Shown here: piece by piece, positions 22,216 to 58,212 of the stretch
Position numbering within the stretch: position 1 is the first letter of the stretch
Layout: each line of letters starts with the position of its first letter
Source of the DNA: Micromonospora terminaliae
GTDB taxonomy: Bacteria; Actinomycetota; Actinomycetes; Mycobacteriales; Micromonosporaceae
DNA length: 64,000 nt
Reading direction: 5' to 3'
Assembly: GCF_009671205.1 (NCBI RefSeq)
Contig: NZ_CP045309.1
Location: 806,001 to 870,000 of the forward strand
The notes under the pieces: model-generated
The model's input: only the letters and a program-made list of their open reading frames with translations
Databases searched by the model: none
What the model was told of the DNA's origin: nothing
Position numbers and translations under genes: made by a program

Positions 22216-23073
22216 TCAGCGGGCCGGCAGCGCGGCGGCGAACGCGGCGATCCGGGCGGCCAGCGGGGCGGCGGCGCGCACCCAGGTGAAGTGGTCCAGC
22301 GGGGCGCCCGCCTCGGCGACGGTGTAGCGGTGCCGGCTCACCTCGGCGGCGGTGAGCTTGCCGCAGAGGTGGTCCATCGTCTCGTGCGGCGTGTACTGGT
22401 CGTCGTCGACGCTGACCGCGAGCACCGGGGTGCGGACCCGCCGGACGGCCGCCTCGACGTCGACCCCGTCGAGCACCGGGAAGCGCCCGGTCCGCGCCGT
22501 GTACGCCCAGTCCCGGATCACCCCGCGCGCCTGCCGGCCGCCGAAGCCCCAGCCCGGCCAGACGCCGAGCAGCCGGGCCACCGCCGCGATGCCCTGGGTG
22601 TACGGCAGCACCCCCCAGCCGCGCCGCCCCGGATACCCGCGCCACCACGGGATGCCCACCGCGACGAGCGCCAGCCCGTCCACCCGGTCCGCGTCGTGCA
22701 GTGCCTGGTGCAGCACCGCGACCTGCCCGCCGAGCGAGTGCCCGAGCAGCAGCCGGGTCCGGCCGTCCAGCCGGGGCTTGAGCGCGTCGAGCACCGCGCC
22801 GACGTCGGTGGCCAGCTCGGCGTACCCGTACCGGCAGGTGCGGGAGGGTGCCGGCGTGCTCTCGCCGGTGCCGCGCAGGTCGGCCACGACGACGGCCAGG
22901 CCGGCCTCGCGCAGCGCCGTGGCGAACGGCCGGTAGTAGCGGGCGCGGACACCCATGGCGGGCCAGATCACCACCACGGGGGCGCCGGGCGGCCCGTCCG
23001 GTTCCGGGTAGCTCTGGACGCCGATGCGCGCCCCGTCGACGTCCACGAACTCCTGCGTGTACTCCCCGCTCAC
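22216..23073 (-). CDS. Alpha/beta hydrolase
   Basis: 285-aa serine hydrolase. The nucleophile elbow is GHSLGGQ (about residues 110-116); VVVADLRGTGES (about 61-72) and a late DHFTW with the probable catalytic His complete the pattern, and the acid may be in SVDDDQYTP. Cytoplasmic, with no signal peptide. It is the last gene on this strand after the heptose/glycosyltransferase operon, 22 bp downstream of the GT9 stop, with a GTG start and no clear ribosome site. It may be co-transcribed, but a role in the glycan pathway is only inferred. Confidence 0.84.
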   Translation of the reverse strand: MSGEYTQEFVDVDGARIGVQSYPEPDGPPGAPVVVIWPAMGVRARYYRPFATALREAGLAVVVADLRGTGESTPAPSRTCRYGYAELATDVGAVLDALKPRLDGRTRLLLGHSLGGQVAVLHQALHDADRVDGLALVAVGIPWWRGYPGRRGWGVLPYTQGIAAVARLLGVWPGWGFGGRQARGVIRDWAYTARTGRFPVLDGVDVEAAVRRVRTPVLAVSVDDDQYTPHETMDHLCGKLTAAEVSRHRYTVAEAGAPLDHFTWVRAAAPLAARIAAFAAALPAR

Positions 23074-23095
23074 CGGCTCAGCCTACGGCGGCAGG

Positions 23096-24079
23096 CTACC
23101 GGCGGGTAGCAACGGGGGCGCCCGCCTGTGCCGGGACCCGCTGCCCGGCGACCGACCTGGCGGCCGTGGTCACCCGGTCGACCGCCGCCAGCACGGCCGG
23201 TACGTCCAGCTCGGCCAGCGCGGGATGCACGGCCGGTCCGTCCCCGGCCCGGCGCGGCCCGGCCCAGAGCGCCTCGTGCCACGGCCGGTCCGGCGGCGGC
23301 CCCCACTCCGCGGGCGGCACCGGCCCGAAGAGCAGCACCGACGGGGTGGCGTAGGCGGTGGCCAGGTGACCGATGCCGGTGTCTCCGCAGAGCACCAGTC
23401 GGGCGTGGGCGACCAGCGCGGCCAGCTCGCCGACGTCGGTAGCGCCGGCCAGCACGGCGTCGGCCGCCAACCCGGCCCGGCGGGCCACCCCGGCGGCGAG
23501 GTCCCGCTCACCGGGGCTGCCGGTGACCACCACCCGGTGGCCCCGTCCGGCCAGCTCCCGGGCCACCGCCGCGAACCGCTCCGGCGGCCAGCGCCGCCGC
23601 GCCGCCTTGGCGCCCGGGTGCACGATCGTCACGCCGGTCGGCAGCCCGGCGGACCCGGGCCGGCGCAGCGCCAGGTCGGTGCGGTCGGCCGGGATGCCGT
23701 ACCAGCCGAGCATCCGGCACCACCGGTTCACCTCGTGCTCCCCGGCCCGCCACGGCGGACCCTCGTGCCACCCGGCCCTGGCGTTGGCGAAGGCGAGCAG
23801 CCGCCCCGGCCGGACCTCCGCGAGCATCCGGTGCGACTGCGGGCCCCGGCCGTGCAGGTTCACGGCCACCGCGGGCGGCGGGCCGGACCAGCCGAGGCGG
23901 CCCAGCCCGTCCGCGAAGACCTGCCGGTCCACGCCCCCGACCAGGTCGACCAGCGGGGCCAGCCAGCGCGGCGCGACCAGCGCCAGCTCGCGACCGGGGT
24001 ACGCGGCGCGCAGCGCGCGCAGCGCCGGCACCCCGGTCGCGAGGTCGCCGACGCCGAGCGCGCGGAGCACGAGGATCAC
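23096..24079 (-). CDS. Glycosyltransferase family 9 (heptosyltransferase-like)
   Basis: 327-aa GT-B protein of the ADP-heptose:LPS heptosyltransferase family. The N-terminal domain starts VILVLRALGVGDLATGVPAL, and the C-terminal donor-binding domain has VTIVHPGAKAARRRWP, VVVTGSPGERDLA and CGDTGIGHLATAYATPSVLLFGP, the GT9 hallmark. It should transfer a heptose from an ADP-heptose donor to an unknown acceptor on the cytoplasmic side. The GTG at 24079 overlaps the SDR stop (GTGA), so it is part of the operon with hldE, gmhA and the GmhB-GT9 fusion. It is the second GT9 domain in the cluster. Confidence 0.9.
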   Translation of the reverse strand: MILVLRALGVGDLATGVPALRALRAAYPGRELALVAPRWLAPLVDLVGGVDRQVFADGLGRLGWSGPPPAVAVNLHGRGPQSHRMLAEVRPGRLLAFANARAGWHEGPPWRAGEHEVNRWCRMLGWYGIPADRTDLALRRPGSAGLPTGVTIVHPGAKAARRRWPPERFAAVARELAGRGHRVVVTGSPGERDLAAGVARRAGLAADAVLAGATDVGELAALVAHARLVLCGDTGIGHLATAYATPSVLLFGPVPPAEWGPPPDRPWHEALWAGPRRAGDGPAVHPALAELDVPAVLAAVDRVTTAARSVAGQRVPAQAGAPVATRR

Positions 24080-24771
24080 GGGTACGACGACTCCTGCTCG
24101 GCGCAGACCACGAGCTCGCGCACGGCGCAGCCGGGCGGCTGGGAGAGCGCGAACAGGACCGCCTCGGCGGTGTCGGCCGGGTCGTTGAGGATGGCGTCCG
24201 GGCCGGGCTTGTACCGCTCGTCCCGGTCGTCGAAGAACGCCGTCCGCATCCCACCCGGGATCAGCAGCGTGACGCCGACCGTCCCGGCCAGTTCGGCGGC
24301 GAGCGCCCGGGTGAACCCGACCACCCCGAACTTCGCCGCGCAGTACGCGGTCGCGTCGCTGACCGCCTTGACGCCCAGCGTGGACGCCACGGTCACCACC
24401 GTGCCGTGCGCCCGCTCCAGGTGCGGCAGGGCGGCCCGGATCACCGCGGCGGTGCCGAGCAGGTTGATCGTCACGATCCGGTCCCAGGTCGCGCCGTCGA
24501 CGTCGGCCAGCCGGCCGGGGACGTCCATGCCGGCGGCGGTCACCACGCCGTCGAGGCCACCGGCCTGCTCGGCGAGCTGCCGGGTGGCCGCCTCGGCGGC
24601 CCGTGTGTCGGCCAGGTCGCACTCGACCCACGGCACCCCGTCGGCCGGCGCCTGCCGGTCCAGCACGTACGGCCGCCCACCCGCCTTGGCCACCGCGGTC
24701 ACCACCGCCGCGCCGAGGCCGCTCGACCCGCCGGTCACGAGGACCGCCCGCCCGTTCAAATCCCTGCTCAT
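24076..24771 (-). CDS. Short-chain dehydrogenase/reductase in heptose cluster
   Basis: 231-aa classical SDR with the NAD(P)-binding TGGSSGLG (about residues 13-20), a VTAAG in place of NNAG, catalytic Ser in VASTLG and YCAAK (Tyr-x-x-x-Lys). The size is that of a classical reductase, not an extended SDR such as HldD epimerase. It lies between hldE and the GT9 gene, overlapping the latter by GTGA, so it probably acts on the sugar or acceptor made by this operon (inference). The ATG at 24771 has GGAG about 8 nt upstream and follows hldE after a 76-bp gap. Confidence 0.88.
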   Translation of the reverse strand: MSRDLNGRAVLVTGGSSGLGAAVVTAVAKAGGRPYVLDRQAPADGVPWVECDLADTRAAEAATRQLAEQAGGLDGVVTAAGMDVPGRLADVDGATWDRIVTINLLGTAAVIRAALPHLERAHGTVVTVASTLGVKAVSDATAYCAAKFGVVGFTRALAAELAGTVGVTLLIPGGMRTAFFDDRDERYKPGPDAILNDPADTAEAVLFALSQPPGCAVRELVVCAEQESSYP

Positions 24772-24847
24772 GCCGGCACTCCGCTTCGCTCCGTGCCGCC
24801 CTGAGGCACCAGTGCACTGCGTTGACGATCCGCTCGCTGACGCTCGC

Positions 24848-26260
24848 TCATACCGCTCCCTTGACGAGGTGGAGACCGCGCTGGCGCGCGGCCGAGATGG
24901 TGCCCGTGGTCGACCGCCCGGCCAGGAAGGGCACGGTGACGACCCGCCCGCCCCAGCGGCGTACCAGCTCCGCCTCGGGCAGCTCGGGGGCGCCCTCGCC
25001 GGCGTAGTCGCCGCCCTTGACCCAGACCTCTGGGCGGAGCCGGGCGAGCACCTGGTGCGGGGTGGGCTCGTCGAAGACCACCACCGCGTCGACGCAGTCC
25101 AGGGCGGCCAGCAGCCGCACCCGGTCCGCCTCCGGGTTGACCGGGCGCTCGGGCCCCTTGAGGCCCCGGACGCTGCGGTCGGAGTTGAGGCAGACCACCA
25201 GGCAGTCGCCGAGGCGGCGGGCCGCCTGGAGGGTGGCCAGGTGACCGGCGTGCAGGATGTCGAAGCAGCCGCCGGTGGCCACCACGGTGCCGCCGTCGGC
25301 GCGTACCGTCGCGACCAGTTCCTCGGCGGTGCGCGCGGCCGCCACCGGCCGCGGCTGCTCCGGCACCCGGTGCAGGCCGGCCGCCCCACCGGCGGCCACG
25401 TACGCGGACGCGGCCTCGACCGCCGCCTGCACCGCCTCGGCGACCGACGCGCCGGCGGCCAGCGCCAGCGCGGCGGTGGCGGCGAACCGGTCCCCGGCGC
25501 CGCAGGTGTCCTCGACGTGCTCCAGGGTGGACGGCGGCGACACGACCAGCGGGGCGCTGCCGGAGTGGCAGAGCACCGCGCCGTCCGCCCCCGTGGTCAC
25601 GGCGACCGCGCCGGCCCGCCACCGGCGGCGCAGCTCCTGCCCGGCGCGGGTGGCGGTGGAGAGCGCCGACCCGGCCCCCGCGTCGCCGGTGAGCTGGCGC
25701 AGTTCGGCCAGGTTGGGCGTGGCCAGCCGGACCCCGGGCACCGCGGCGGGGCCACGCGGGTGCGGGTCCCAGACCACCGGGGCGGTGGCGTCGGCCAGTG
25801 CCGCCCGCAGCGCCGGCTGCCGGAGCAGCCCGCGACCGTAGTCGCTCACCAGGATCGCCCGGGCCCGGGCCAGCAGCTCCAGCACCGCCTCCGGCGGCTC
25901 GCCCGGTGGCTGGGGGTCGCCGCCCCGGTCCAGCCGGAGCAGGGTCTGCCCGCCCGCGCGGAGCCGGATCTTCTCGGCCGTGGCTCCGGGCAGCGGGATC
26001 GGGTAGATGTCGACGCCCGCCCCGGTGAGCAGGTCCGTGAGCCGGGCCGCGCCGGCGTCGTCGGCCAGCCCGGTCACCAGCGCCACCTCGGTCCCCTGCG
26101 CGGCCGCGAGCAGCGCGGCCAGGCCGGCCCCGCCCGGCCGGTCGGCGGCGGACCGTTCGTCGAGCACCGGCACCGGCGCGTCCGGGGCGACCCGGCCGAC
26201 CACGCCGGTGACGTCCCGGTCCAGCAGCGCGTCGCCGACCACGACGAGCGGGCGGGTCAC
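24848..26260 (-). CDS. hldE: Bifunctional heptose-7-phosphate kinase/heptose-1-phosphate adenylyltransferase
   Basis: 470-aa two-domain enzyme. Residues 1 to about 310 form a PfkB/ribokinase domain with DTCGAGD at 251-257 (anion hole and catalytic Asp). Residues about 325-470 form a cytidylyltransferase-like domain with GCFDILHAGH (331-340, HxGH) and KGGDY. The family phosphorylates D-glycero-D-manno-heptose 7-phosphate at O1 and, after GmhB removes the 7-phosphate, adenylylates the product to ADP-heptose. The length matches E. coli HldE (about 477). GTG 26260 overlaps the gmhA stop as GTGA. With gmhA and the GmhB domain nearby, the pathway to ADP-D-glycero-D-manno-heptose is complete in this operon. 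Confidence 0.94.
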   Translation of the reverse strand: MTRPLVVVGDALLDRDVTGVVGRVAPDAPVPVLDERSAADRPGGAGLAALLAAAQGTEVALVTGLADDAGAARLTDLLTGAGVDIYPIPLPGATAEKIRLRAGGQTLLRLDRGGDPQPPGEPPEAVLELLARARAILVSDYGRGLLRQPALRAALADATAPVVWDPHPRGPAAVPGVRLATPNLAELRQLTGDAGAGSALSTATRAGQELRRRWRAGAVAVTTGADGAVLCHSGSAPLVVSPPSTLEHVEDTCGAGDRFAATAALALAAGASVAEAVQAAVEAASAYVAAGGAAGLHRVPEQPRPVAAARTAEELVATVRADGGTVVATGGCFDILHAGHLATLQAARRLGDCLVVCLNSDRSVRGLKGPERPVNPEADRVRLLAALDCVDAVVVFDEPTPHQVLARLRPEVWVKGGDYAGEGAPELPEAELVRRWGGRVVTVPFLAGRSTTGTISAARQRGLHLVKGAV

Positions 26261-27000
26261 GACCGTACCCACCCGGTGCCGGTCGACCCGTGCCCGTTGG
26301 TCGAGTGTCCGTTGGTCGAGTGTCCGTTGGCGCCGTCCCGGCCCTTGCCGGCGGCGACGGGTGGCGGCGCCCAGCGGGCGAAGGTGCCGGCCCGGGGCGC
26401 GGGGACGGACGCGGTCGGCAGCTGCCGGATCAGTGGCAGCGCCTGGTCGACGTACTCGCAGAGCAGGTGCGTGGAAACCAGGTGCAGCTCCTGCACCACC
26501 TGGCTGTCGGGGGACGGCACGGCGAGCACCTCGTGGCACCGGTCGGCGAGCGGGTTGGGGGCGGGGCCGGTGAAGGCCCAGCAGCGCAGGCCGGTGTCGT
26601 GGCCGGCCTGGGCGGCGGTGAGGAGGTTGGTGCTGGTGCCGCTGGTGGACATGAGCAGGAGGATGTCGTCGGGTCGGCCGTGGGCGCGGACCTGGCGGGC
26701 GAAGACCTCGTCGTAGCCGTAGTCGTTGCCGATGGCGGTGAGGGCGGAGGTTTCGGCGTGCAGGGCGATGGCGGACAGGGGTTCGCGGTCGTCGCGGAGT
26801 TTGCCGACGAGTTCGGCGGTGAGGTGCTGGGCTTCGGCGGCGCTGCCGCCGTTGCCGGCGACCAGCAGCCGCCCACCCCGGGCCAGCGTCCACGCCAGCT
26901 CGGTGCCCCAGCCCGCGAGCCGTTCGGCCTCCCGGCGGTAGGGCAGCAGCGCCGCGGCCAGCCCCGAGAGGTGGGCGTCGAGGGTGTCGTGGTGGGTCAT
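26257..27000 (-). CDS. gmhA: Sedoheptulose-7-phosphate isomerase (SIS domain) with C-terminal extension
   Basis: 247 aa. The SIS core (about 1-195) has AGNGGSAAEAQHLTAELVGK with His59 and Glu63, STSGTSTN (118-125) and ELHLVSTHLLCEYVD with His178, which correspond to the catalytic and zinc-binding residues of GmhA. It converts sedoheptulose 7-phosphate to D-glycero-D-manno-heptose 7-phosphate, the first step to ADP-heptose. An extra tail of about 50 residues (196-247) is low-complexity and includes NGHSTNGHSTNGHG, encoded by a 15-bp DNA repeat. The middle third of the gene (about 26560-26870) uses GAA, AAA and CTC codons where the flanks use GAG, AAG and CTG. ATG 27000 overlaps the preceding GT4 stop (TGATG). 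Confidence 0.93.
   Translation of the reverse strand: MTHHDTLDAHLSGLAAALLPYRREAERLAGWGTELAWTLARGGRLLVAGNGGSAAEAQHLTAELVGKLRDDREPLSAIALHAETSALTAIGNDYGYDEVFARQVRAHGRPDDILLLMSTSGTSTNLLTAAQAGHDTGLRCWAFTGPAPNPLADRCHEVLAVPSPDSQVVQELHLVSTHLLCEYVDQALPLIRQLPTASVPAPRAGTFARWAPPPVAAGKGRDGANGHSTNGHSTNGHGSTGTGWVRS
26291..26330. repeat. 15-bp in-frame tandem repeat in gmhA tail
   Basis: Two full units and two thirds of a third (26291-26305, 26306-26320, 26321-26330; unit TGTCCGTTGGTCGAG with one change in the first). It encodes repeated NGHST. Gain or loss of a unit would keep the frame. Confidence 0.92.
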
Positions 27001-28217
27001 CAGGCCACCGCCGGCGCGGGCCGGGACACCGTGGCCAGCGCCGAGTAGACCGCGCCGAGCTGTTCGGCGCAGCGCTTCCAGGAGTACCGGCTGCGGATCC
27101 GGTCCAACGCCGCCGTGGCGTACGTGAAGCGGCGGACCTTGTCGGCGAGCAGCCGGCGCAGGGCGGTGCCGAGCGCGCGGGGATCGCGCGGCGGCACCAG
27201 GTCGCCGGTGAGCCCGTCGACGACGGTGTCCGCGATGCCGCCGACGTTGGTGCCGATCACCGGCACGCCACAGGCCATCCCTTCGAGGGGGGTGAGCCCG
27301 AACGGCTCGTACCAGGGGGCGGCCACCAGAACGTCCGCCGACCGGTACCAGGCGCCCATCTCCTCGCGCGGCACCGCGCCGACCAGCTTCACCCGGTCGG
27401 CCACGCCGCACGCGTCGGCCAGCGCGGACAGCCGCCGGGCGAACGCGTCGGCGGGGAGGAGGTCGGCCGGCGGGCCGCCGACCACCACGCACTCGGCGTC
27501 CGGCACCGCGGGCAGCGCCCGGACCACCTCCAGGAAGCCCTTGCGCTCGACCATCCGGCCGACCGTGAGGATGCGGGGGCGGGCCGGGTCACGCGGGGCG
27601 ACCGGGCCGTCGGGCCGGAACACCGACTGGTTGACGCCGGACGGGACCAGCGCCATCCGGGACCGGGGCACGCCCATCCGGACCAGCTCGGCGACCTCGT
27701 CCTCGCACTGCACGATGACCCGGTCCACGGCCCGGCCGAGCGTCCGCTCGTAGCCGACCCGCCCTGGTGGACTGGTGTCCTTCGCGCCCTGGTGCCGGCG
27801 CTTGACCGTGCCCAGCGCGTGGTACGTGAGCACCGTCGGCACCCCGGTCCGCCGGCCCGCGTGCACGGTGGCCAGCCCGCTCATCCAGAAGTGCGCGTGC
27901 GCCACGTCCGGGGTCCAGCCGCCGCGCCGCCAGGTGTCTGCCAGCCAGCTGCCGAACTCACCCATGTACGGGAGCAGTTCGTCCTTCGGCACCCGTCGCG
28001 CCGGACCGGCCGGCACGTGGCACACCTGGTAGCCGTCCGCCGTGGACACCGCGTCGGGCAGGGCGGTGGAGTCGCGGCGGGTGTAGACGCGGACGTCGTG
28101 CCCCTCGCCGACCAGCGCGGCCGCGAGTTCCGCCACGTGGGTGTTCTGGCCGCCGGCATCCTCCTCGCCGAGGACGGCGAGCGGGCTGGCGTGCTCCGAA
28201 ATCATCGCGATGCGCAT
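27000..28217 (-). CDS. Glycosyltransferase family 4
   Basis: 405-aa GT-B enzyme. The N terminus MRIAMISEHASPLAVLGEEDAGGQ resembles sucrose-phosphate-synthase/MshA-like GT4 proteins with a GGQ glycine loop. The donor-binding part has ILTVGRMVERKGF and the E-x7-E motif in EPFGLTPLEGMACGVPVIGT. The donor sugar is unknown. No membrane helix. ATG 28217 is preceded by GGAGGAGGAG. Its start overlaps the upstream glycosyltransferase gene by 16 bp and its stop overlaps gmhA (TGATG), so it is fully embedded in the heptose operon. Confidence 0.91.
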   Translation of the reverse strand: MRIAMISEHASPLAVLGEEDAGGQNTHVAELAAALVGEGHDVRVYTRRDSTALPDAVSTADGYQVCHVPAGPARRVPKDELLPYMGEFGSWLADTWRRGGWTPDVAHAHFWMSGLATVHAGRRTGVPTVLTYHALGTVKRRHQGAKDTSPPGRVGYERTLGRAVDRVIVQCEDEVAELVRMGVPRSRMALVPSGVNQSVFRPDGPVAPRDPARPRILTVGRMVERKGFLEVVRALPAVPDAECVVVGGPPADLLPADAFARRLSALADACGVADRVKLVGAVPREEMGAWYRSADVLVAAPWYEPFGLTPLEGMACGVPVIGTNVGGIADTVVDGLTGDLVPPRDPRALGTALRRLLADKVRRFTYATAALDRIRSRYSWKRCAEQLGAVYSALATVSRPAPAVA

Positions 28218-29176
28218 GTCTCCTCCTCCATGATCCGGTCCCAGTCGGCGAGGAACCGGTCGAGCCCGAAGCGTTCCTTCGTCACCTCGCGCGCCCGCGC
28301 ACCCAGCCGGTACGCGGCGTCGCGGTCCTCGGCGAGCCACCGGGCCGCCTCGACGAGCGTGTCCACCCGGGTGGCGAGCACACCGGCGTCGGGCGGCACG
28401 GCGTCCACGGCCTCGGTGGTGGCCAGCGCGACCACCGGCATGCCGATGGTCATGGCCTCGATGAGGCTCAGCCCGAGCGAGGTCCACCGGCACAGGTGCA
28501 GGTACGCCCGCCGCCGCGCCACCTCGGTGTGCATCCGGTCCTGCGGCACGTCGTCGTGGACCGCCAGCCGGTCCGCCGGCAGGCCGAGCCGGTCGGGCAG
28601 CCCGGCAACCCCCATGCCGAAGACGTCCAGCGGGGCGGCGGCGGCGAAGCGTGGCATGAGGTCGGTGCCGGTGACCCGCCAGCGGCGGACCGGCTCGTTG
28701 GTGACCACCGCGAGGCGGTCCAGCTCGCCGGTCCACTCCACCCTGGGCGGCACGATGCCGTGCTCGACGACCGCGGTGCGGGTGTCGCCGTTGTCCCAGA
28801 ACAGCTCGTTGAAGTGGGTGACGTGGGTGAGCAGCAGGTCGTCGCGGTCGGCCATGGGGTGGCGGGTGTCCGGCACGTCGCCCTTCGGGGTGTTGTGCTC
28901 GACGTAGACGGCCGGCACGTCCCGGCCGGGCCGGCGACCCAGCCACCGTTCGGCCAGGTCCAGCTCCTCGGGCCGTTGCAGGATCACGAGGTCGACCTCG
29001 GTCCGCCCCAGCTCCTCCGGGGTCACCTCGACGGCGTTGTCCGGCCAGGTGTAGGTCCGCGCCCGGCCCAGCCCGTACGGGCCGCGGTCGGGCGTGACCG
29101 GCACCAGGTACCGGTGTCTCCCGTGCACGAACGACGTCGTCCAGGAGCCGTGCACGTGCCACACAAGAACGTTCAT
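28202..29176 (-). CDS. Glycosyltransferase (GT-B fold)
   Basis: 324-aa protein starting MNVLVWHVHGSWTTSFVHG, with YVEHNTPKGDVPDT in the acceptor domain and a C-terminal LHLCRWTSLGLSLIEAMTIGMPVVALATTE that carries the GT4-type E-x7-E-like donor-binding element. It is shorter than usual GT4 proteins because the second Rossmann domain is compact. The start is ATG 29176 with GAGGAGAG upstream; an open frame extends further but is repetitive Pro/Ala. It overlaps the next GT4 gene by 16 bp within the same operon. Substrates are unknown. Confidence 0.86.
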   Translation of the reverse strand: MNVLVWHVHGSWTTSFVHGRHRYLVPVTPDRGPYGLGRARTYTWPDNAVEVTPEELGRTEVDLVILQRPEELDLAERWLGRRPGRDVPAVYVEHNTPKGDVPDTRHPMADRDDLLLTHVTHFNELFWDNGDTRTAVVEHGIVPPRVEWTGELDRLAVVTNEPVRRWRVTGTDLMPRFAAAAPLDVFGMGVAGLPDRLGLPADRLAVHDDVPQDRMHTEVARRRAYLHLCRWTSLGLSLIEAMTIGMPVVALATTEAVDAVPPDAGVLATRVDTLVEAARWLAEDRDAAYRLGARAREVTKERFGLDRFLADWDRIMEEETCASR

Positions 29177-29229
29177 CTCTCTCCTCGTCGGCGACGGTGC
29201 GGGGGCGGGGGCGGGGGCGGGCGGTGGGG

Positions 29230-30798
29230 TCAACCGGGGGCGAGCCGGCGGACGGCCGCGACCACCGCGGCCGGGTCGACGCCGCCCAGGCAGGGGTGCC
29301 CGGCGACCGGGCAGACGGCCGCCCGGGTGTCCCGGCAGGCCGCCGAGACGTCACCGAGCCGGACCGTGGGCACCCGGTAGGGCCCCCACTGCCCGAACGG
29401 GACGGTCGGGGCGAAGAGGCTGACCACCGGGGTGCCGGCGGCGGCCGCCAGGTGCGCGGGTCCGGTGTTGCCGACGACCAGGCAGCGGGCCCCGGCGACG
29501 ATCCGGGCGAGTCCGGCCAGGTCGGTCGCCCCGCCCAGGTCGGTGCCGCCGGCGGCGGCCACCCGGGCGGTCAGCTCCCGCTCGCCGGGGCCGCCGGTGA
29601 CCAGCACCCGGTGACCGTCCGCCGCGAGGGCCGCCACGATCTCGGCGCAGCGCGCGGGCGGGCAGGCCCGGGCCGGCACCGAGGAGCCGGGGTGCACCAC
29701 CACGTAGCCGGCGGCGGGCAGGTCCACGGCCGGCGCGGGCAGGTCGGCGCGGAGGCGCAGTACCGGCTCGTCACCGGCGGGCAGGGCGAAACCGGCCGCG
29801 GCGGCCAGGGACACCGCCCGCTCCGGCTCGGGCACCCCGACCGGCACCCGGTGCCGGACGTCGAGCAGGGAGCCGGGGTAGTCGTCACTGATGGCGCTGA
29901 TCCGGGGCACACCCGCCATCCGCAGCAGCAGCGCCAGGGGGAGCGGCGACTGGTGGAACGAGGTGAACACGACCGCCTCGTCGGCGCCCACGTCGGTGAG
30001 CCGGGCGGTGAGCCGGCGCATGTCGTCGGGGTCGACCGGCTCGGGGGAACCGTCGATCCAGGGCAGCGGCCACTCGATGATCTCGTCGACGCCGGGCAGC
30101 AGCTCCGCCGCGGCCCGGCCGCGTGGCCCGCAGAGCAGCACCACCCGTTCCGCCCCGGCCGCCACCGCGCGGATCCCGGGGCCGGTGACCAGCACGTCGC
30201 CGGCCGAGTCGCTGCGTACCACCAGCACCGTGCCGGCCCGTCCGGCCCGCGCCACCACCGGTCGCACCGCCCGGTCCCGGCGCAGGATCTCGGCCACCGC
30301 GCCGGGCAGGTCCCAGGCGACGGCCGGCGCCTCGGCGACCTCCTCGGGCCGGGTGACCGGGGTGGGCACCAGGATTCCGGTGGCCCCGGCGGCGAGCGCG
30401 GCGGCCATGTCGCGGCCGATGTCGCCGACCAGCACGCAGCGCCGGGGCACGGTGCCGAGCGCCCGGGCCGCCTCGTGCACCAGCCCCGGGGCCGGCTTGC
30501 GGCAGGCGCAGCCGTCGGTGTCGTCGTGCGGGCAGATCGCCCAGTGGTCGAAGGGGCCGAGCAGCTCCCCGATGCGGGCGTGCACCGCGTGCATCTGCCG
30601 CTCGGTGAAGTATCCGCGGGCCAGCCCGGACTGGTTGGTCACCACGGCCAGCCGGAGCCCGGCCGCGCGCAGCCGGTCCAGCGCCTCCCGGGCGCCGGGC
30701 AGCGGCCGGACCTTCTCCGGGTCGCCGTTGTAGGGCACGTCCTCGACCAGGGTGCCGTCGCGGTCGAGCAGCACCGCGTCGTACAGGGGGGTCAGCAC
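29230..30798 (-). CDS. Fusion of heptose-1,7-bisphosphate phosphatase (GmhB) and GT9 glycosyltransferase
   Basis: 522-aa fusion. Residues 1 to about 178 are a HAD-IIIA phosphatase of GmhB type: DRDGT (12-16), VTNQSG (53-58), the zinc loop with Cys89, His91, Cys97 and Cys99, then CRKP and GDIGRD. Residues about 187-522 are a GT9 heptosyltransferase-like domain starting TVLVVRSDSAGDVLVTGPGI, with VVHPGSSVPAR and GNTGPAHLAAAAGTPVVSLFAP. One polypeptide thus removes the 7-phosphate of heptose bisphosphate and transfers a sugar, presumably heptose, to an acceptor. GTG 30798 overlaps the upstream GT2 stop by 7 bp. I see no frameshift that might have artificially joined two genes. Confidence 0.9.
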   Translation of the reverse strand: MLTPLYDAVLLDRDGTLVEDVPYNGDPEKVRPLPGAREALDRLRAAGLRLAVVTNQSGLARGYFTERQMHAVHARIGELLGPFDHWAICPHDDTDGCACRKPAPGLVHEAARALGTVPRRCVLVGDIGRDMAAALAAGATGILVPTPVTRPEEVAEAPAVAWDLPGAVAEILRRDRAVRPVVARAGRAGTVLVVRSDSAGDVLVTGPGIRAVAAGAERVVLLCGPRGRAAAELLPGVDEIIEWPLPWIDGSPEPVDPDDMRRLTARLTDVGADEAVVFTSFHQSPLPLALLLRMAGVPRISAISDDYPGSLLDVRHRVPVGVPEPERAVSLAAAAGFALPAGDEPVLRLRADLPAPAVDLPAAGYVVVHPGSSVPARACPPARCAEIVAALAADGHRVLVTGGPGERELTARVAAAGGTDLGGATDLAGLARIVAGARCLVVGNTGPAHLAAAAGTPVVSLFAPTVPFGQWGPYRVPTVRLGDVSAACRDTRAAVCPVAGHPCLGGVDPAAVVAAVRRLAPG

Positions 30799-31817
30799 CG
30801 CTCCGCCCCCGTGACCACGGATCCGGCCGCGACGGCGCGGGCGCGCCACCAGCCGCGTACCCAGTGGGCGACCGCGAGCGGCGGGATGAGCGCGCTGGTC
30901 GCCAGCATGGTGGCGACCTCGTCGGGGGTGCGCGGGCCGGGCGCGACGCGCGCCCGGGTGAACTCGGCCGTGCCGGCCGCCCAGCCGAGCGCGGCGAGGC
31001 CGCCGGTCACGGCGGCCGCGCGCCGGGCGCGGGCGGAGCGCAGGGGCGCGGCCCGCAGCACCCCGGCGGCCAGCGCCACCGCGCCGGCCGCGGCGACCGT
31101 CACGTGCCGGGGCCGCCGCCCCGGCGGCAGGTCGAGGTCGGCACGCCAGCCCGGCCCGTAGAGCCGGCGCAGCAGCGCGTCGTCGGCGTTGCCGCGCTGG
31201 GTGCGCAGGCTGACCCAGCGGCTCTCCGGGCGGACCGGGTGGGTCACCCGGCGCCGGCCGCGGGCCAGCTTCCAGCCGGCGCGGCGGACCCGGTAGGCCA
31301 GCTCGGCGTCCTCCCGGTAGGCGCGCGGGAAGCGCTCGTCGAACCCGCCGACCGCGGCCAGGGCCGTCCGGCGGTAGGCCATGTCCGCCGTGATCCAGCG
31401 CCCATCGGCCAGGCCGGCGGTGCCGCGTTCCCAGTCGGTGGGGCGGCGGCGCGCGGGCAGCGGCACGTCCACCACGCCCTGCACGCCGCCCACCCCGCCG
31501 GCGGTCGCGAGGTCGGCGCGCAGCGAGCGGGCCCAGTCCGGCGCCGGCACCACGTCGTCGTCGAGGAAGACCACCCACTCGCCGCGGGCGGCCCGCCAGC
31601 CCAGGTTGCGGGCGGCCGCCGGCCCCGCGCCGCGCCCGGTCAGCACCTTCGTGTACGCCGTGAGCGCCCCCGGCACCGCCAGCTCACCGGTGTCGTCACG
31701 CCGGTCGTCGACCAGCAGCAACTCGGCCTCGGACAGCTCGTCGAGCTGGCCGGCGAGGGCGTCCAGCAGGGTGGCCAGGCTCGGCCGCCCCAGTGTGGGC
31801 ACCACGACGCTGATCAC
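30792..31817 (-). CDS. Glycosyltransferase family 2 with C-terminal membrane segments
   Basis: 341-aa GT-A enzyme. It has ISVVVPTLGRPSLATLLDAL at the start, a VVFLDDDVVPAPDW metal-binding DxD-type motif (about residues 85-98) and a later acceptor/base region FPRAYREDAELAYRVRRAGW. The C-terminal 100 residues include two or three hydrophobic segments (about 235-252, 262-278 and 295-315) that could anchor it to the membrane. Donor and acceptor are unknown. GTG 31817 overlaps the carbamoyltransferase stop (GTGA), and the 3' end overlaps the GmhB-GT9 gene. It is the second gene of the operon. Confidence 0.9.
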   Translation of the reverse strand: MISVVVPTLGRPSLATLLDALAGQLDELSEAELLLVDDRRDDTGELAVPGALTAYTKVLTGRGAGPAAARNLGWRAARGEWVVFLDDDVVPAPDWARSLRADLATAGGVGGVQGVVDVPLPARRRPTDWERGTAGLADGRWITADMAYRRTALAAVGGFDERFPRAYREDAELAYRVRRAGWKLARGRRRVTHPVRPESRWVSLRTQRGNADDALLRRLYGPGWRADLDLPPGRRPRHVTVAAAGAVALAAGVLRAAPLRSARARRAAAVTGGLAALGWAAGTAEFTRARVAPGPRTPDEVATMLATSALIPPLAVAHWVRGWWRARAVAAGSVVTGAERC

Positions 31818-33466
31818 CGGTCGCCGCCCAGGGCGCGGCGGTGCACCGCGAACGGGCCGAGGGCGAGCAGGTCCACCGGGGCGGAGCCGAACAGCTCCAT
31901 GGCCTCGCGCGGGGTGTCCACCATGGGTCGCCCGGCGGTGTTCAGCGAGGTGTTCACCACCACCGGTAGCCCGGTGCGCCGCTCGAACTCGGCCAGCAGT
32001 TCGGCCACCAGCGGCTCGGTCTCCGGGTGCACGGTCTGCACCCGGGCGGTCCCGTCGACGTGGGTGACCGCCGGGATCCGGTCCCGCCACTCCGGCTTCA
32101 CGTGGTGCACGAAGAGCATGTACGGGCTGGGGTAGACCCCGTCGAACAGCTCCGCGAAGCGTTCCGCGCGGACCATCGGGGCGATGGGCCGGAACTGCTC
32201 GCGACCCTTGACGTCGTTCATCCGGCGGGTGGTGTCCGGGTCGCCGGGGTGGGCCAGCAGCGACCGGTGGCCGAGCGCCCGGGGGCCGTACTCGCTGCGC
32301 CCCTGGTACCAGGCGACGATGCCGTTGTCGGCGAGCACCCGGGCGGCCTCGGCGGCGATCGACGCCGGCCGCGTGTACGGCAGCGCGGCCCGCCGCAGCT
32401 CCGCCTCCAGCTCGTCGTCCGACCAGCCGCGGCCCAGGTCCGCGCCGGCCATCGGGGTGGACCGGTCGCCCAGCTCGCCGGCCACGTGCAGCGCCGCGCC
32501 GAGCGCCGTGCCCGCGTCGCCCGCCGCGGGCTGCACCCAGACGTTCCGGTACGGCCCCTCGGCCGCGATCCGCGCGTTGGCCACGCAGTTCAGCGCCACC
32601 CCGCCGGCCATCGCGAGGGTGCTGGCGCCGCCGGAGGCGTCGTGGAGCCAGCGGGACAGCTCGAGGATGACCTCCTCGAGCCGCGCCTGGACGCTGGACG
32701 CGAGGTCGGCGTGCTCCTCGGTCAGCTCGCCACCGGCGGCGACCGCCTTGGCGAGGCCGGCCCAGTCGATCCGTTCGACCTGGAAGCCGCCGTCGTCGGT
32801 GACCCGCACCAGGTCGCGGAGCAGGCCCAGGTGCTTCGGCTGCCCGTAGGAGGCCAGCGCCATCACCTTGTACTCGTCGCTGGAGTGCAGGAAGCCCAGG
32901 TGCCGGGTGAGGTCCTCGTAGAGCAGGCCGAGCGAGTGGGGGAGCTGCTGGGAGTGCAGCGACGTGAGCCGGCCGTCCCGGTAGACGCCGGCCAGGTGGC
33001 TGGCCACCTCGCCGCGGCCGTCGAGCACCAGCACGGCGGTGTCGTCGCCGGCCGGCGGGGCCGCCAGTCCGGCGGAGGCCGCGTGTGCGAAGTGGTGCGG
33101 CACGAACCGCACCTTGTCCGGGTCGAGCCCGGGCAGCGCGGCCGCGAGGAACTGCGGCGCCCGCCGGGCGTAGTCGACCCGCAGCCAGTCCCACGGGTCG
33201 CTGAGGCCCAGCTCGGCCGCGTCGCGGCAGAGCCCGGGGTCGAAGGAGTAGGCCACGGCGTCGAGGCTGTCCACGTCGATCCCCGCGCTGCTCAGGCACC
33301 ATGCGGCGGACAGCTCGGGCAGCTCCCAGGCGGCGAAGGGGACCGGTCGTTTGCCGTGCTTGCGTCGGCTGAACCGCTCCTCTTCGGCGGCGGCCACCAC
33401 CCGGCCGTCGACCACCAGGGCAGCCGCGGGGTCGTGGAAGATCGCGTTTATTCCCAGGACGCGCAT
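31814..33466 (-). CDS. NodU/CmcH-type O-carbamoyltransferase
   Basis: 550-aa carbamoyltransferase. The Kae1/YrdC-like N-terminal domain begins MRVLGINAIFHDPAAALVVDG and has VPHHFAHAASAGL (metal-binding His pair), DEYKVMALASYG and MAGGVALNCVANARI. The C-terminal domain has GRSEYGPRALGHRSLLAHP and REQFRPIAP. The family carbamoylates hydroxyls of sugars in Nod factors, antibiotics and glycans using carbamoyl phosphate. It is the first gene of the leftward heptose/glycosyltransferase operon, so a carbamoylated heptose-containing glycan is the simplest inference. ATG 33466 has AGGGA 6 nt upstream. A 21-bp palindrome lies 44-64 bp upstream. Confidence 0.93.
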   Translation of the reverse strand: MRVLGINAIFHDPAAALVVDGRVVAAAEEERFSRRKHGKRPVPFAAWELPELSAAWCLSSAGIDVDSLDAVAYSFDPGLCRDAAELGLSDPWDWLRVDYARRAPQFLAAALPGLDPDKVRFVPHHFAHAASAGLAAPPAGDDTAVLVLDGRGEVASHLAGVYRDGRLTSLHSQQLPHSLGLLYEDLTRHLGFLHSSDEYKVMALASYGQPKHLGLLRDLVRVTDDGGFQVERIDWAGLAKAVAAGGELTEEHADLASSVQARLEEVILELSRWLHDASGGASTLAMAGGVALNCVANARIAAEGPYRNVWVQPAAGDAGTALGAALHVAGELGDRSTPMAGADLGRGWSDDELEAELRRAALPYTRPASIAAEAARVLADNGIVAWYQGRSEYGPRALGHRSLLAHPGDPDTTRRMNDVKGREQFRPIAPMVRAERFAELFDGVYPSPYMLFVHHVKPEWRDRIPAVTHVDGTARVQTVHPETEPLVAELLAEFERRTGLPVVVNTSLNTAGRPMVDTPREAMELFGSAPVDLLALGPFAVHRRALGGDR

Positions 33467-33509
33467 GAGTGGTCCCTACCCTGGCGACCACCTCCTAACC
33501 GCTAGATCA

Positions 33510-33530
33510 TCGACTTCTCCGAGAAGTCGA
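33510..33530. promoter_or_regulatory. Perfect 21-bp palindrome upstream of the carbamoyltransferase/heptose operon
   Basis: Arms TCGACTTCTC and GAGAAGTCGA are separated by one base. It lies 44-64 bp before the ATG at 33466, where a -35 region or operator would sit. A TCTAG-containing -10-like stretch follows on the minus strand. No regulator gene is adjacent. Confidence 0.6.
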
Positions 33531-34097
33531 ATCTCCGCTGTGGACCGTCGAAATCGGGACCAAAGCCCCTGGTCGGCGCGGCCGGAAGCGGCGAAGCTGG
33601 GCAAAGCGGCTCATGCTCGCCCGCCTGCGGCCCCGCCGGTGTCCCCGGGTGCCGCTCGGCGGAGCCGTGCGCTTGCTACTCGGAGTGGCTACCGCCGCCG
33701 ATCGAAGCGGTCACGAAGCGTGGCGGACGTGGCGGGCGCCGCCTCCGCGGCCGCCGCGAGCCACTTACGATCTGAGCAGCGCAAACGCACGTCGCGACTC
33801 TCCGACCGCACCAACCCCTCCGCCGCCTTTGCTCTGCAGCCACATACGCAGCAGCAACCCTGGGTGATCGCTGCGTATGTGGCTGCAGAGCAAAGCGAGT
33901 CCACCACCGGGTGCCGGAGTGCGGCAGCTCTCACTGAGCGTGACGCCATCGAGGTGCGGTCGGGCGGTGCGTGGTGCGAGCCCACGGGAAGGGGTGCGGC
34001 TCGGGCCGGGGTCCGCCGGCATGTCGGGCAAGAGGCCCGCCGGGATGGCGCCGGGCCGGCGCACGGGCGCTGCCCGGCACCGGCCCCCGGTCGCGCC
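33531..34097. other. Gene-free stretch with low-complexity GC-rich DNA and a long inverted repeat
   Basis: Between the palindrome of the carbamoyltransferase operon and the stop of hmp I find no convincing gene on either strand. Open frames here are Pro/Arg/Ala-rich and have no ribosome sites. The only structured element is the inverted repeat at 33827-33895. The part from 33896 to 34097 precedes the 3' end of hmp and shows no clear terminator. Confidence 0.6.
33827..33895. repeat. Long perfect inverted repeat (26-bp arms, 17-nt loop)
   Basis: Arms 33827-33852 and 33870-33895 are exactly complementary and enclose a 17-nt loop. The arms begin CTTTGCTCTGCAGCCACATA and are about 56% G+C, clearly lower than the surroundings. 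There is no U-run on either side and the arms are too long for an ordinary terminator. It resembles a REP-like or MITE-like palindromic element, but no second copy occurs in this window. Confidence 0.9.
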
Positions 34098-35306
34098 TCA
34101 GCGCAGCATGCCCGGACCGAACACCTCGTAGGCGATCCGCTCGGCCGGTACGCCCCGGCACAGCAGGCCGCCGCGGACCAGGGCCATGAACGGCACCGGC
34201 CCGCACAGGTGCACGTACGCGCCGGGCGAGAGCGGGACCAGCGCCGGGTCGACGAGCCCCTCGGCGATCTCGGCCTTGACGCCGGGCAGTTCACCGCCGG
34301 CGGCGTCCTCGTACCAGAGGCGCACGGACAGGTTCGGCAGCCGCTCCTGGAGCGCGGGCAGTTCGTGACGCAGCGCGTGCGCGGCACCGGTGCGGTCGGC
34401 GTGCACCAGCGTCACCGGCCGCTCGGGGTCGGTGGCCGCCAGGTGCGCCAGCGCCGACATGGCCGGGGTCAACCCGATGCCGGCGCTGACCAGCAGCAGC
34501 GGCTCCTCGCCGCCGACCGCGCTGACCTCGCCGAACGGCGGGCTGAGCCGGAGCGTGTCGCCGGCGGCCACCCGCTCGTGCAGGAAGCCGGAGACCATGC
34601 CGTCGGGCGCGCCGGCGGTGCCGCGTACCCGCTTCACGGTGATCCGCCAGTGCTCGGCGCCGGGCCGGCCGGAGAGGCTGTACTGCCGGATCTGCTGGCC
34701 GCGACCGCCGCCCAGGTCGACGGCGACGGAGGTGTACTGGCCGGCGGTGAAGCCGGGCACCGGACCGCCGTCGGCGGGGACCAGCGTGAACGACACGACG
34801 TCCGCGGTCTCCACGGTCTTCTCCGTGACCCGCCACCCGCGCCACACCGGGCCGTTCTCCGGCACCCCGGCCTCGGTGTAGAGGCGCGCCTCCCGGGCGA
34901 TCAGCTCGCAGGCCAGCAGCCAGTACACCTCGTCCCAGGCCGCCGCGACCTCCGGGGTGACCGCCTCGCCGAGCACCTCGGCCACCGCGGCCATCAGGTG
35001 CCGCCCCACGACGGTGTACTGGGTGGCGGTGATCCCCAGGGAGACGTGCTTGTGCGCGATGCGGTCCAGGATCGGCCCCCACGGCGCCGCGCTGCCCCCG
35101 GTCAGGTGCGCGGCGTACGCGACCACCGCACCGGCCAGCGCCGCCTTCTGCGTACCGGTGGCCTGGTTGCTGCGGTTGAAGATGTTCAGCAGCTCCGGGT
35201 GGGCGGCGAACATCCGCTCGTAGAACCGGCCGGTGATCGCCTCGCCGTTGGCCTGCACGGCGGGCAGGGTCGCGGTCACCACGGCTGCGGAGGATTCCGA
35301 GAGCAC
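34098..35306 (-). CDS. hmp: Flavohemoglobin / nitric oxide dioxygenase
   Basis: 402-aa NO dioxygenase that oxidises NO to nitrate with O2 and NAD(P)H. The globin domain (1 to about 138) has the B10 Tyr29, E7 Gln53 and proximal His85 in IAHKHVSLG, at the same numbers as E. coli Hmp. The ferredoxin-reductase part has the FAD motif RQYSLSG (about 209-215) and the NAD motif SAGIGLTP, and ends YEVFGPG as usual. The GTG at 35306 has AAGGAG 5 nt upstream. It is divergent from nsrR, whose product normally represses hmp until NO destroys its Fe-S cluster; a candidate operator lies 40-62 bp upstream. Confidence 0.96.
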   Translation of the reverse strand: MLSESSAAVVTATLPAVQANGEAITGRFYERMFAAHPELLNIFNRSNQATGTQKAALAGAVVAYAAHLTGGSAAPWGPILDRIAHKHVSLGITATQYTVVGRHLMAAVAEVLGEAVTPEVAAAWDEVYWLLACELIAREARLYTEAGVPENGPVWRGWRVTEKTVETADVVSFTLVPADGGPVPGFTAGQYTSVAVDLGGGRGQQIRQYSLSGRPGAEHWRITVKRVRGTAGAPDGMVSGFLHERVAAGDTLRLSPPFGEVSAVGGEEPLLLVSAGIGLTPAMSALAHLAATDPERPVTLVHADRTGAAHALRHELPALQERLPNLSVRLWYEDAAGGELPGVKAEIAEGLVDPALVPLSPGAYVHLCGPVPFMALVRGGLLCRGVPAERIAYEVFGPGMLR

Positions 35307-35345
35307 GATTACTCCTTCGGACGTCGAACGGGTCGACCACCACGA

Positions 35346-35368
35346 AACCGGAGTTCAGGATTCCTTTT
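35346..35368. promoter_or_regulatory. Candidate NsrR operator (11-1-11 inverted repeat)
   Basis: AACCGGAGTTC, A, GGATTCCTTTT: 8 of 11 positions are complementary between the arms. It lies between the divergent hmp and nsrR starts. The 11-1-11 layout is that described for NsrR sites. The half-sites were not compared with an experimentally determined consensus. Confidence 0.5.
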
Positions 35369-35467
35369 CAGGGTCGAAGGTCCCGGGACCGGCGTGGCCT
35401 CGATCACCACCCCGGACGGGACGGCCGGCCCGTGTCACGGCGAGCATGCGCTGGTTAGGGTCGAGGC

Positions 35468-35905
35468 GTGAAGCTCAACCGGTCGACCGACATGGCCCTG
35501 CGGATCGCCATGCTGACCGCCGCGTCCCCGGCTCGGACCACCGTGGACGAACTCGCCACCCAGCTCGCGCTGCCGCGCAGCCACGTGGCCAAGGTGGTGC
35601 AGCGGTTGCAGCGGCTCGGCGTACTGGTGACCATCCGGGGCCGCTCCGGCGGGGTGGCCTTCGCCGAGCACGCCGGTGAGCTGACGGTCGGCCAGGTGGT
35701 GCGGGCCTTCGAGGGCGACGGCGAGGTGGTCAACTGCGAGCAGCCGGCCTGCCCGCTGGTCGCCGGCTGCCGGCTGCGTGGCGAGCTGCGCCGCGCCCAG
35801 GCCGCGTTCCTCGCCGTGCTCGACGGGGTACGCCTCGGCGAGCTGGTCGACGGCGCGGCGGGTCCGCTGCTGCTCACCCTCGGCGCCCCGCCCGCGGCCC
35901 GCTGA
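35468..35905 (+). CDS. nsrR: Rrf2-family nitric-oxide-sensing repressor
   Basis: 145-aa Rrf2 protein. It has an N-terminal winged helix (about 1-75; [14 protein letters not shown] is the recognition region) and three cysteines, Cys90, Cys95 and Cys101, in [14 protein letters not shown], the Fe-S cluster ligands typical of NsrR. In other actinobacteria NsrR binds DNA with its cluster and releases it on reaction with NO, which derepresses hmp. The divergent hmp gene supports this identity over IscR. GTG 35468 has no clear ribosome site. The stop overlaps the methyltransferase ATG (TGATG), so the two are translationally coupled. Confidence 0.92.
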
Positions 35906-51743: not shown

Positions 51744-51765
51744 CTGGCTCGTCCCGTCTCGCGGC

Positions 51766-53277: not shown

Positions 53278-53374
53278 TGCCGTTCCTCACTTCTGCGGTG
53301 GATGGGGGGTTCGCGCGTCGGTGACCGGGTGGTGAACGTTGGTCGTGGCCGAGGTGAACCTTAACGCGGACGAC

Positions 53375-53415
53375 GGAGCGCACCGACCGGGGCGAGCCCC
53401 GCACCGGTGCGCTCC
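53375..53415 (-). terminator. Terminator after the ABC exporter genes
   Basis: An 11-bp stem (GGAGCGCACCG and its complement) with an inner GGGGC/GCCCC stem lies just after the ATPase stop (53422). It separates the exporter operon from the downstream IspD-SDR gene, which therefore needs its own promoter in 53278-53374. Confidence 0.75.
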
Positions 53416-53421
53416 GGGCCG

Positions 53422-54222
53422 CTACTTCTGGTTCTCGTAGGCGTCGCAGACCTCCTGGGTGGGCCCGTCCATCCGAAGGACGCCGCTCTCCAGCCAGATG
53501 GTCCGCTCGCAGGTGTCCCGGATCGAGCCGATCGAGTGGCTGACCAGGAAGACGGTGCCGGCGCTGTCGCGCAGCTCCCGCACCCGCTGCTCGCTGCGGG
53601 CCCGGAACTTGCGGTCGCCGGTCGCCAGCGCCTCGTCGATGAGCAGCACGTCGTGCTTCTTCGCCGAGGAGATGGCGAAGCGCAGCCGGGCGCCCATGCC
53701 GGAGGAGTACGTCCGCATCGGCAGCGAGGCGAAGTCCCCCCGCTCGTTGATCCCGGAGAACTCGATGATCTCCGGCGCGACCCGCTTGACCTCCTCCGGC
53801 TGCATGCCCATGGCCAGGCAGCCGAGCACCACGTTGCGCTCGCCGGAGAGGTCGTTGAGCAGGGCCGCGTTCACGCCCAGCAGGGACGGCTGGCCCTGGG
53901 TGTAGACCGCGCCCCGGGCCGGCGGGAGCAGGCCGGCGATGGCCCGCAGCAGGGTCGACTTGCCGGAGCCGTTGCTCCCGATCAGGCCGATGGCCTCACC
54001 CTCGTACGCGGTGAAGCTCACCCCCTTGACCGCGTGCACCTCGCGGATGTTCGGGGCGCTGGTCCGGGACACGATGCGCTTGAGGGCGGAGACCGGGCTG
54101 TTGGCCCCGGTGGCGCCCTTGTGGATCTTGTAAATCACGTGCACGTCGTCCACCACCACGGTGGGGATGCGCCCCGAGTCCACCACGCCGGCACTGCCCG
54201 CCGGCTGCGTGAGGTCAGCCAC
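53422..54222 (-). CDS. ABC transporter ATPase, polysaccharide/teichoic acid export (TagH/Wzt-like)
   Basis: 266-aa ATPase with Walker A GSNGSGKST (82-90), signature YSSGMGARL (172-180), Walker B VLLIDEALA (192-200) and the switch His in LVSHS. The RTSAPNIREVHAVKGVSF stretch before Walker A and the SSGM-type signature are typical of TagH/Wzt exporters of surface polymers. No C-terminal carbohydrate-binding domain is present. GTG 54222 overlaps the permease stop by 8 bp and has GAGGAG upstream, so the two form the exporter. The likely cargo is the polymer made by the adjacent TagF-like and CDP-ribitol genes. Confidence 0.92.
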   Translation of the reverse strand: MADLTQPAGSAGVVDSGRIPTVVVDDVHVIYKIHKGATGANSPVSALKRIVSRTSAPNIREVHAVKGVSFTAYEGEAIGLIGSNGSGKSTLLRAIAGLLPPARGAVYTQGQPSLLGVNAALLNDLSGERNVVLGCLAMGMQPEEVKRVAPEIIEFSGINERGDFASLPMRTYSSGMGARLRFAISSAKKHDVLLIDEALATGDRKFRARSEQRVRELRDSAGTVFLVSHSIGSIRDTCERTIWLESGVLRMDGPTQEVCDAYENQK

Positions 54223-55117: not shown

Positions 55118-55252
55118 GGTCAGGCGCTCCGATCTTTTGTGCCGATGGGGAGCAGGGAGATGTTGTCGCGGCGTGGAAATCTAGCGCGGCCGGGCGGGGA
55201 GGGTGCCTCGCTGCTGCCGGAAAGGTAGTCCAAAACACGTCGGGACGCAACC

Positions 55253-55273: not shown

Positions 55274-55280
55274 GTCCCAC

Positions 55281-55913: not shown

Positions 55914-55966
55914 CCCCCGGGTTCCTGCCCGTGGTTCGCCAGTCGATCATGAACATCAGGTCACAT

Positions 55967-58204: not shown

Positions 58205-58212
58205 CCCGCTCC

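Follow-up and report, generated by a model that had tools for sequence, protein, structure and literature searches.

What does a block of genes for a heptose pathway, several glycosyltransferases, and a carbamoyltransferase make in the Gram-positive bacterium Micromonospora terminaliae? The block lies in a stretch of 64,000 nucleotides (contig NZ_CP045309.1, positions 806,001 to 870,000)—hereafter the window—and belongs to a genome of the genus Micromonospora with a size of 6.74 Mb in two contigs. Profile searches together with a reading of the start codons place nine leftward genes on the minus strand at 23096–33466, a length of approximately 10.4 kb (Table 1). A preliminary description of the DNA had listed GmhA, HldE with both domains, GmhB, two GT9, one GT2, and two further glycosyltransferases, a short-chain dehydrogenase/reductase (SDR), and a NodU/CmcH carbamoyltransferase; all of these are confirmed by the profile searches. 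Its interpretation, a heptose-containing and carbamoylated product, is partly supported: it is right in outline, and the operon type is a known one. The block is identified below as an orthologue of the cwg operon of Streptomyces, and it is fairly likely that it makes a heptose-based, carbamoylated envelope glycan, probably joined to the wall.

The cwg operon of Streptomyces coelicolor (sco6179–6190) was reportedly described by Hong et al. in 2002 as a putative cell wall glycan operon. In the accessible part of PMC6767563, cwg is the "cell wall glycan" operon, is induced by vancomycin, depends in part on sigma-E, and was one of just two in vivo targets known for Streptomyces sigma-E before the regulon was mapped; the operon is also covered in the portions seen of PMC5882110 and PMC13011467, and its gene names occur in table rows of PMC5839063. 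For the orthology test, the cwg promoter as printed in Table 1 of PMC6767563 was searched in 392 Streptomyces genomes. It is found exactly in a single genome, that of S. coelicolor or a close relative (locus L173), and with one mismatch in three more. In L173, a start codon lies 147 bp past the promoter, matching the published distance, and is followed by a nucleoside diphosphate (NDP)-sugar dehydratase gene, cwgA. After cwgA come orthologues of the window genes, in unchanged order and on the same strand, at 54–70% identity (tblastn). Because the exact cwg promoter heads these collinear orthologues, the block is, as judged from its sequence, the Micromonospora orthologue of cwg, corresponding one to one to cwgB–J—a pathway that is already catalogued.

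Compared with cwg of Streptomyces, the window block features a fusion of GmhB and GT9, which are separate genes (cwgD and cwgE) in Streptomyces, and in addition an SDR gene. The Streptomyces operon opens with cwgA, whereas the orthologue of cwgA (59% identical) is absent from the window block and lies elsewhere in the genome, at 5.45 Mb. It closes with two GT2 genes, a pair that the block lacks; at 1e-8 no match to this pair was found in the window and five other loci of the same genome, the rest of which was not searched. The lead promoter is of the sigma-E type in Streptomyces and of a SigB-like type in the window. Besides vancomycin, other antibiotics that act on the wall count among the inducers of the Streptomyces operon.

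The block encodes—as supported by family matches and conserved motifs—a complete enzyme set leading from sedoheptulose-7-phosphate to NDP-D-glycero-D-manno-heptose without HldD. The best NCBIfam matches of GmhA, HldE, and GmhB are heptose families, and the best relatives of GmhA with a solved structure are phosphoheptose isomerases, e.g., 2xbl (E 1e-39). Motif conservation was judged on 94 orthologous loci, 81–93 of which are covered per column, with short or missing matches omitted gene by gene. In GmhA, E63 is kept in 93/93 loci and H178 in 91/91; the GmhB domain keeps DxD in 81/81 loci and the Cys/His zinc-type ligands C-x-H...C-x-C in 82/82. Which residues of GmhA, HldE, and GmhB are catalytic is taken here as an assumption. 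The operon contains no HldD-type epimerase, as had been noted before, and none exceeds the TIGR02197 cut-off genome-wide: the top score is 116 bits versus 274.6, by which an HldD located elsewhere in the genome is rejected. Residues 445–452 of HldE, FLAGRSTT, fit the STTR5 motif (F/L)XXGRSTT. Among 87 HldE orthologues, position 5 is Arg in 83, and the first residue is Tyr in 82 and Phe in only five. The STTR5 motif marks HldE enzymes that are promiscuous for nucleoside triphosphates and make adenosine, cytidine, and uridine diphosphate (ADP, CDP, and UDP)-heptose (PMC11573728). As HldE carries this motif, its product nucleotide possibly extends beyond ADP alone, so that of the ADP-heptose pathway proposed earlier the complete heptose set stands, and ADP may not be the sole nucleotide. 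With the Gram-negative ADP-heptose pathway (GmhA, HldE, GmhB, HldD; WaaC/WaaF), the window shares the first three enzymes and the GT9 transferases; it differs by the lack of an HldD above the cut-off in the genome, by the STTR5 nucleotidyltransferase, and in that no lipopolysaccharide (LPS) acceptor is expected. The product sugar would be a heptose.

LytR-CpsA-Psr (LCP) proteins join glycopolymers to peptidoglycan. Two LCP genes follow the cwgA orthologue of this genome, and the first of the two adjoins it in all nine Micromonospora genomes examined (the own genome and 8/8 further ones). Outside the genus, four of five genomes have a cwg gene next to the cwgA orthologue—the carbamoyltransferase in G688, G050, and G056, and the GT4-type glycosyltransferase GT1x in G053; in the short locus of G055, neither of the two is found beside it. 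Because the cwgA orthologue sits beside LCP genes, a wall-anchored glycan is favoured, short of proof. Relatives of the carbamoyltransferase with solved structures include TobZ, GdmN, 7xb6, and a carbamoyltransferase for novobiocin. As for its substrate, the part of PMC8005017 available describes carbamoylated heptose in the LPS core of Pseudomonas and names WapO (PA5005) as a putative heptose 7-O-carbamoyltransferase. WapO, like the window enzyme, is a carbamoyltransferase within a heptosyltransferase gene set; by this analogy, a likeness of gene context, the window enzyme would act on heptose.

In the proposed mechanism, the two GT9 enzymes would add heptose to a cytoplasmic precursor, and the two GT4-type enzymes and the GT2 would add other sugars to it. 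Carbamoyl groups would be placed on this glycan by the NodU/CmcH enzyme, plausibly at heptose, following the example of Pseudomonas LPS. After export, the glycan would be attached to the envelope, probably through an LCP ligase that links it to peptidoglycan. A sigma factor of the SigB type, acting in stress or development, would probably control expression.

A scan of genome contigs with GT1x yields at least 568 relatives, the best 80 of which were kept. Among these, six Micromonospora loci carry all nine genes in the window order, and so do 15 loci from seven further genera of Micromonosporaceae (Actinoplanes, Paractinoplanes, Couchioplanes, Nucisporomicrobium, Dactylosporangium, Phytohabitans, and Rugosimonospora). 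A core type, whose locus holds neither carbamoyltransferase nor GT2, accounts for most of the remaining Micromonospora loci and for the loci from Salinispora, Verrucosispora, and Plantactinospora. Out of eight Streptomyces loci, four keep the order but lack the SDR (L131 with no final GT9 matched), L136 is rearranged, and the remaining three run into contig ends. The SDR is of the short classical type, with PF00106 as top match, and not of the HldD kind; its gene is found in Micromonosporaceae loci and in some other families, with no match at that position in the Streptomyces loci. Across the phylum, GT1x is detected at E 1e-20 in 40 of 396 evenly drawn Actinomycetota genomes (25/236 genera). 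The order GmhB/GT9, GT1x, GT4 is kept in 25 of 30 loci taken from this sample, each of up to approximately 4 kb and two from Micromonospora; L156, L158, L166, L167, and L168 deviate. When proteins in a database are searched by means of the GT1x alignment, from which L057 was omitted for a stop codon inside its stretch, at least 8000 candidates pass (all of those scored), and the named organisms among 120 listed are all Micromonospora; this search is saturated and hence uninformative on the range outside the phylum.

The same genome carries a second copy of the operon, the core copy (L043), approximately 160 kb from the window copy and 66–87% identical to it gene by gene. It features GmhB-GT9, GT1x, GT4, GmhA, HldE, SDR, and GT9 ordered as in the window copy, with no match to a carbamoyltransferase or GT2 within the 20 kb examined. 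HldE of the core type is present in 37/37 Micromonospora genomes (as fragments only in G010, G014, and G023), HldE of the window type (≥81% identity) in nine. A carbamoyltransferase of ≥88% identity occurs in ten: the nine window-type genomes and G010, a fragmented assembly. The HldE tree unites the window type in one clade (12 rows, support 100), which joins the Actinoplanes-type rows weakly (86, 80). In the trees of GT1x and, among the rows listed, GT4, M. mirobrigensis falls outside the other window-type rows. In this species (L050, L071, L096), GT1x and GT4 of both copies group together and HldE of both copies does not, a pattern that suggests exchange between the operon copies (gene conversion). 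A third HldE-like gene, more distant and with genus-wide relatives, is located at 6.02 Mb in the same genome (G000; L044:4292–11439), where GT9 and GT2 genes adjoin it. Its adenylyltransferase domain reaches 204 bits, over the NCBIfam domain cut-off of 181.5, and no G-x-STT motif is present in the frame examined.

The window block is headed by a sequence resembling a SigB-type promoter (Table 1), which fits the promoters of S. coelicolor SigB homologues as given in the part of PMC8346170 seen; it points to an mRNA with little or no leader. GGTT-N15-GGGTA ending 9–10 nt before the ATG is found in 15/15 window-type loci, 13 of which have the strict GGTTAG...GGGTAG form, and GNNT-N15-GGGTA ending 10–11 nt before the ATG in 15/15 NodU loci of the seven other genera. 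As a control, GNNT-N14–16-GGGTA precedes only 2 of 737 ATG triplets on both strands of the window; the strict form has three matches genome-wide, its backward control one. The loci are related, so the promoter counts are not independent; one species supplies both L050 and L071 and enters the counts once, through L050. The core copy, with GTTTAC-N13-GGGAAC in 14/14 loci examined, is SigB-like too. A SigB-type sigma factor for stress or development probably governs the window operon, as the promoter-like sequence suggests. The sigma-E pattern (AAC-N-GTC) gives three scattered matches upstream of NodU among 26 other loci. Upstream of GmhB-GT9, it is matched in 10/44 loci, eight of which share the same site approximately 290 nt upstream and stem from related species. 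Five Streptomyces loci have 14 scattered matches to a sigma-E-like pattern and no clear site before the operon.

Farther upstream, the conserved box GAGAAGTCGATGATCT is a possible regulator site; a similar box occurs in Actinoplanes-type loci. A motif close to ATCAGTGCAGGTC, a putative regulator site, lies upstream of the core copy (L043:4215–4235) in 13/14 loci and upstream of NodU in 9/15 loci of other genera, with no match at the window copy. In addition, an inverted repeat whose 26-nt arms pair perfectly around a 17-nt loop is located upstream of the operon at 33827–33895; its arm has nine matches genome-wide within three mismatches, both arms included, and none in the backward control. 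New in this analysis are a second operon copy that occurs throughout the genus and lacks carbamoyltransferase and GT2, with the window copy being present in 9–10 of 37 genomes, and besides the copies, on the level of sequence, the SigB-like lead promoter, the STTR5 motif of HldE, and the cwgA orthologue beside LCP ligase genes.

Several results weigh against a heptose-based, carbamoylated envelope glycan encoded by a cwg orthologue. All three heptose enzymes score below their NCBIfam equivalog cut-offs: GmhA with 149.6 versus 209.5 bits, HldE with 284 versus 521 (its adenylyltransferase domain with 179.8 versus 181.5), and the GmhB domain with 121.8 versus 178. The motif of the fused GT9 is NTGxxH, with Asn in 88/92 loci in place of the usual Asp, so that the donor may differ. 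Genes for a flippase, a polymerase, or a ligase are all missing from the block in profile searches. A close carbamoyltransferase is absent in 27/37 Micromonospora genomes, seven of which have only distant ones (37–46%); the glycan of the core copy is therefore presumably made without carbamoyltransferase in most species. The 300 nt upstream of the window NodU contain no match to the sigma-E pattern, by which a sigma-E promoter at this operon is rejected. Finally, no structure or description of the cwg glycan product was found in the accessible portions of the literature.

Among the rival explanations, the one surviving best is a membrane glycolipid or protein glycan in place of a peptidoglycan-anchored polymer, which is unlikely but deserves weight. 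It would agree with a block without polymerase or flippase, with a GT4 enzyme closest to MshA, and with the structure of GT1x—an ordinary GT4-type fold resembling PimA, BshA, and TarM, enzymes of small, lipid, or polymer acceptors, that gives no clue to donor or acceptor. beta-manno-Heptose also serves protein heptosylation (PMC11573728). However, the cwgA orthologue lies beside LCP genes, and sigma-E of S. coelicolor also controls peptidoglycan and LCP functions, according to the part of PMC6767563 seen. Still less probable is that the operon makes a natural product with heptose for secretion, after the manner of septacidin or hygromycin B, even with the antibiotic-pathway enzymes TobZ and GdmN among the solved relatives of the carbamoyltransferase. 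Streptomyces use ADP-heptose for both antibiotics (PMC10221265, accessible part), and their pathways share with the window a heptose derived from sedoheptulose-7-phosphate in actinobacteria; they serve secreted compounds, whereas the window holds a conserved glycosyltransferase operon. Against a secreted product speak the synteny across Micromonosporaceae, Streptomyces, and other Actinomycetota, the genus-wide paralogue, the lack, within the block, of genes for an aglycone, a transporter, or resistance, and the place of cwg in the cell-envelope stress regulon of S. coelicolor (PMC6767563, same part). The surface glycan, one of the two products originally envisaged, is the likeliest, and the secreted metabolite, the other, is weakened because the operon is deeply and syntenically conserved. 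That the kinase-nucleotidyltransferase uses another sugar and no heptose is made is highly improbable: the scores under the equivalog cut-offs and the Asn of the fused GT9 donor motif would fit, but three successive heptose-pathway enzymes stand together with two GT9 enzymes, the GmhA, GmhB, and HldE signatures are kept, and the best structural relatives of GmhA are phosphoheptose isomerases.

Table 1. Genes and upstream elements of the window block (aa, amino acids; percentages are identities to the cwg orthologue)
Feature	Position	Strand	Remarks
NodU/CmcH-family O-carbamoyltransferase, 550 aa	31814–33466	-	PF16861 (E 7e-66), PF02543 (E 7e-53); cwgB orthologue, 70% over 544 columns
GT2 glycosyltransferase, 341 aa	30792–31817	-	PF00535; cwgC orthologue, 54%
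GmhB-like HAD phosphatase (heptose-1,7-bisphosphate 7-phosphatase; ~residues 1–174) fused to GT9 (~190–519)	29230–30798	-	cwgD and cwgE orthologues, 59% and 56%
GT1x, GT4-type glycosyltransferase, 324 aa	28202–29176	-	cwgF orthologue, 61%
GT4 glycosyltransferase, 405 aa	27000–28217	-	cwgG orthologue, 54%; top NCBIfam match MshA, under cut-off
GmhA-like SIS protein, sedoheptulose-7-phosphate isomerase, 247 aa	26257–27000	-	PF13580; cwgH orthologue, 59%
HldE, heptose-7-phosphate kinase and heptose-1-phosphate nucleotidyltransferase, 470 aa	24848–26260	-	cwgI orthologue, 54%
SDR, 231 aa	24076–24771	-	PF00106 (E 1e-37)
GT9 heptosyltransferase-type enzyme, 327 aa	23096–24079	-	PF01075; cwgJ orthologue, 56%; motif DTGxxH
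SigB-type promoter-like GGTTAG-N13-GGGTAG	33476–33500	-	-10 element ends 9 nt before the ATG
Conserved upstream box GAGAAGTCGATGATCT	33504–33519	-	AAGTCGATGAYCT in 15/15 window-type loci, full box in 11/15

The genes of the block are tightly packed: six of the eight junctions overlap (by 1, 4, 4, 4, 7, and 16 nt), in line with the overlaps "almost throughout" reported initially, and two are gapped (53 and 76 nt). The single leftward operon had been drawn from 22216 to 33466. The block itself holds, but its left border does not: the alpha/beta hydrolase gene at 22216–23073 lies outside and is a flank, since sister species have the hydrolase beside the flavohaemoglobin gene without an operon in between—an empty site that rules out the hydrolase as an operon member. 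In the sisters G018 and G021, the two genes adjoin, their match ends being 68 and 222 nt apart, and in G006 and G012, the gap is approximately 1.5 kb; NodU, HldE, SDR, and GT9 give no match in the stretches examined in all four. In window-type loci that reach both flank genes, the operon sits between flavohaemoglobin and hydrolase; two of seven loci with fragmentary window-type operons end at contig ends and are not placeable between both flanks. The flavohaemoglobin gene of the window is divergent from a gene for an Rrf2-family regulator (34098–35905), and the two are likely a nitric-oxide response pair.

A ribitol-teichoic-acid-like locus is found at 50046–63228 of the window. It features an IspD-SDR fusion of the D-ribitol-5-phosphate cytidylyltransferase subfamily (167.8 bits versus a cut-off of 166), TagH-like and ABC-2 exporter genes at 53422–55117, and in addition a DegT aminotransferase, a Gfo/Idh/MocA oxidoreductase, and GT4-type enzymes. 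The fusion occurs in 11 of 12 Micromonospora genomes searched; four of these carry it on one contig with the carbamoyltransferase gene, at a distance of approximately 18–22 kb.

For the cwg product, the question is narrowed to an envelope glycan based on heptose, in many cases carbamoylated and probably attached to the wall, which in Micromonospora would have a genus-wide and a facultative form. The heptose pathway, the two GT9 enzymes, the carbamoyltransferase, and the link between cwgA and LCP genes make the unexplained cwg product a testable structure, and what the carbamoyl group does can be approached by comparing sister species that have one or both copies. A more far-reaching picture is put forward tentatively: some Micromonospora may carry two cwg systems and two heptose wall glycans, one genus-wide and uncarbamoylated, the other facultative, carbamoylated, switched on by a SigB-type factor of stress or sporulation, and presumably LCP-anchored, with an STTR5 HldE making ADP-, CDP-, and UDP-heptose. 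If true, harmless Gram-positive soil bacteria would carry ALPK1-activating heptose nucleotides, which are best known from Gram-negatives.

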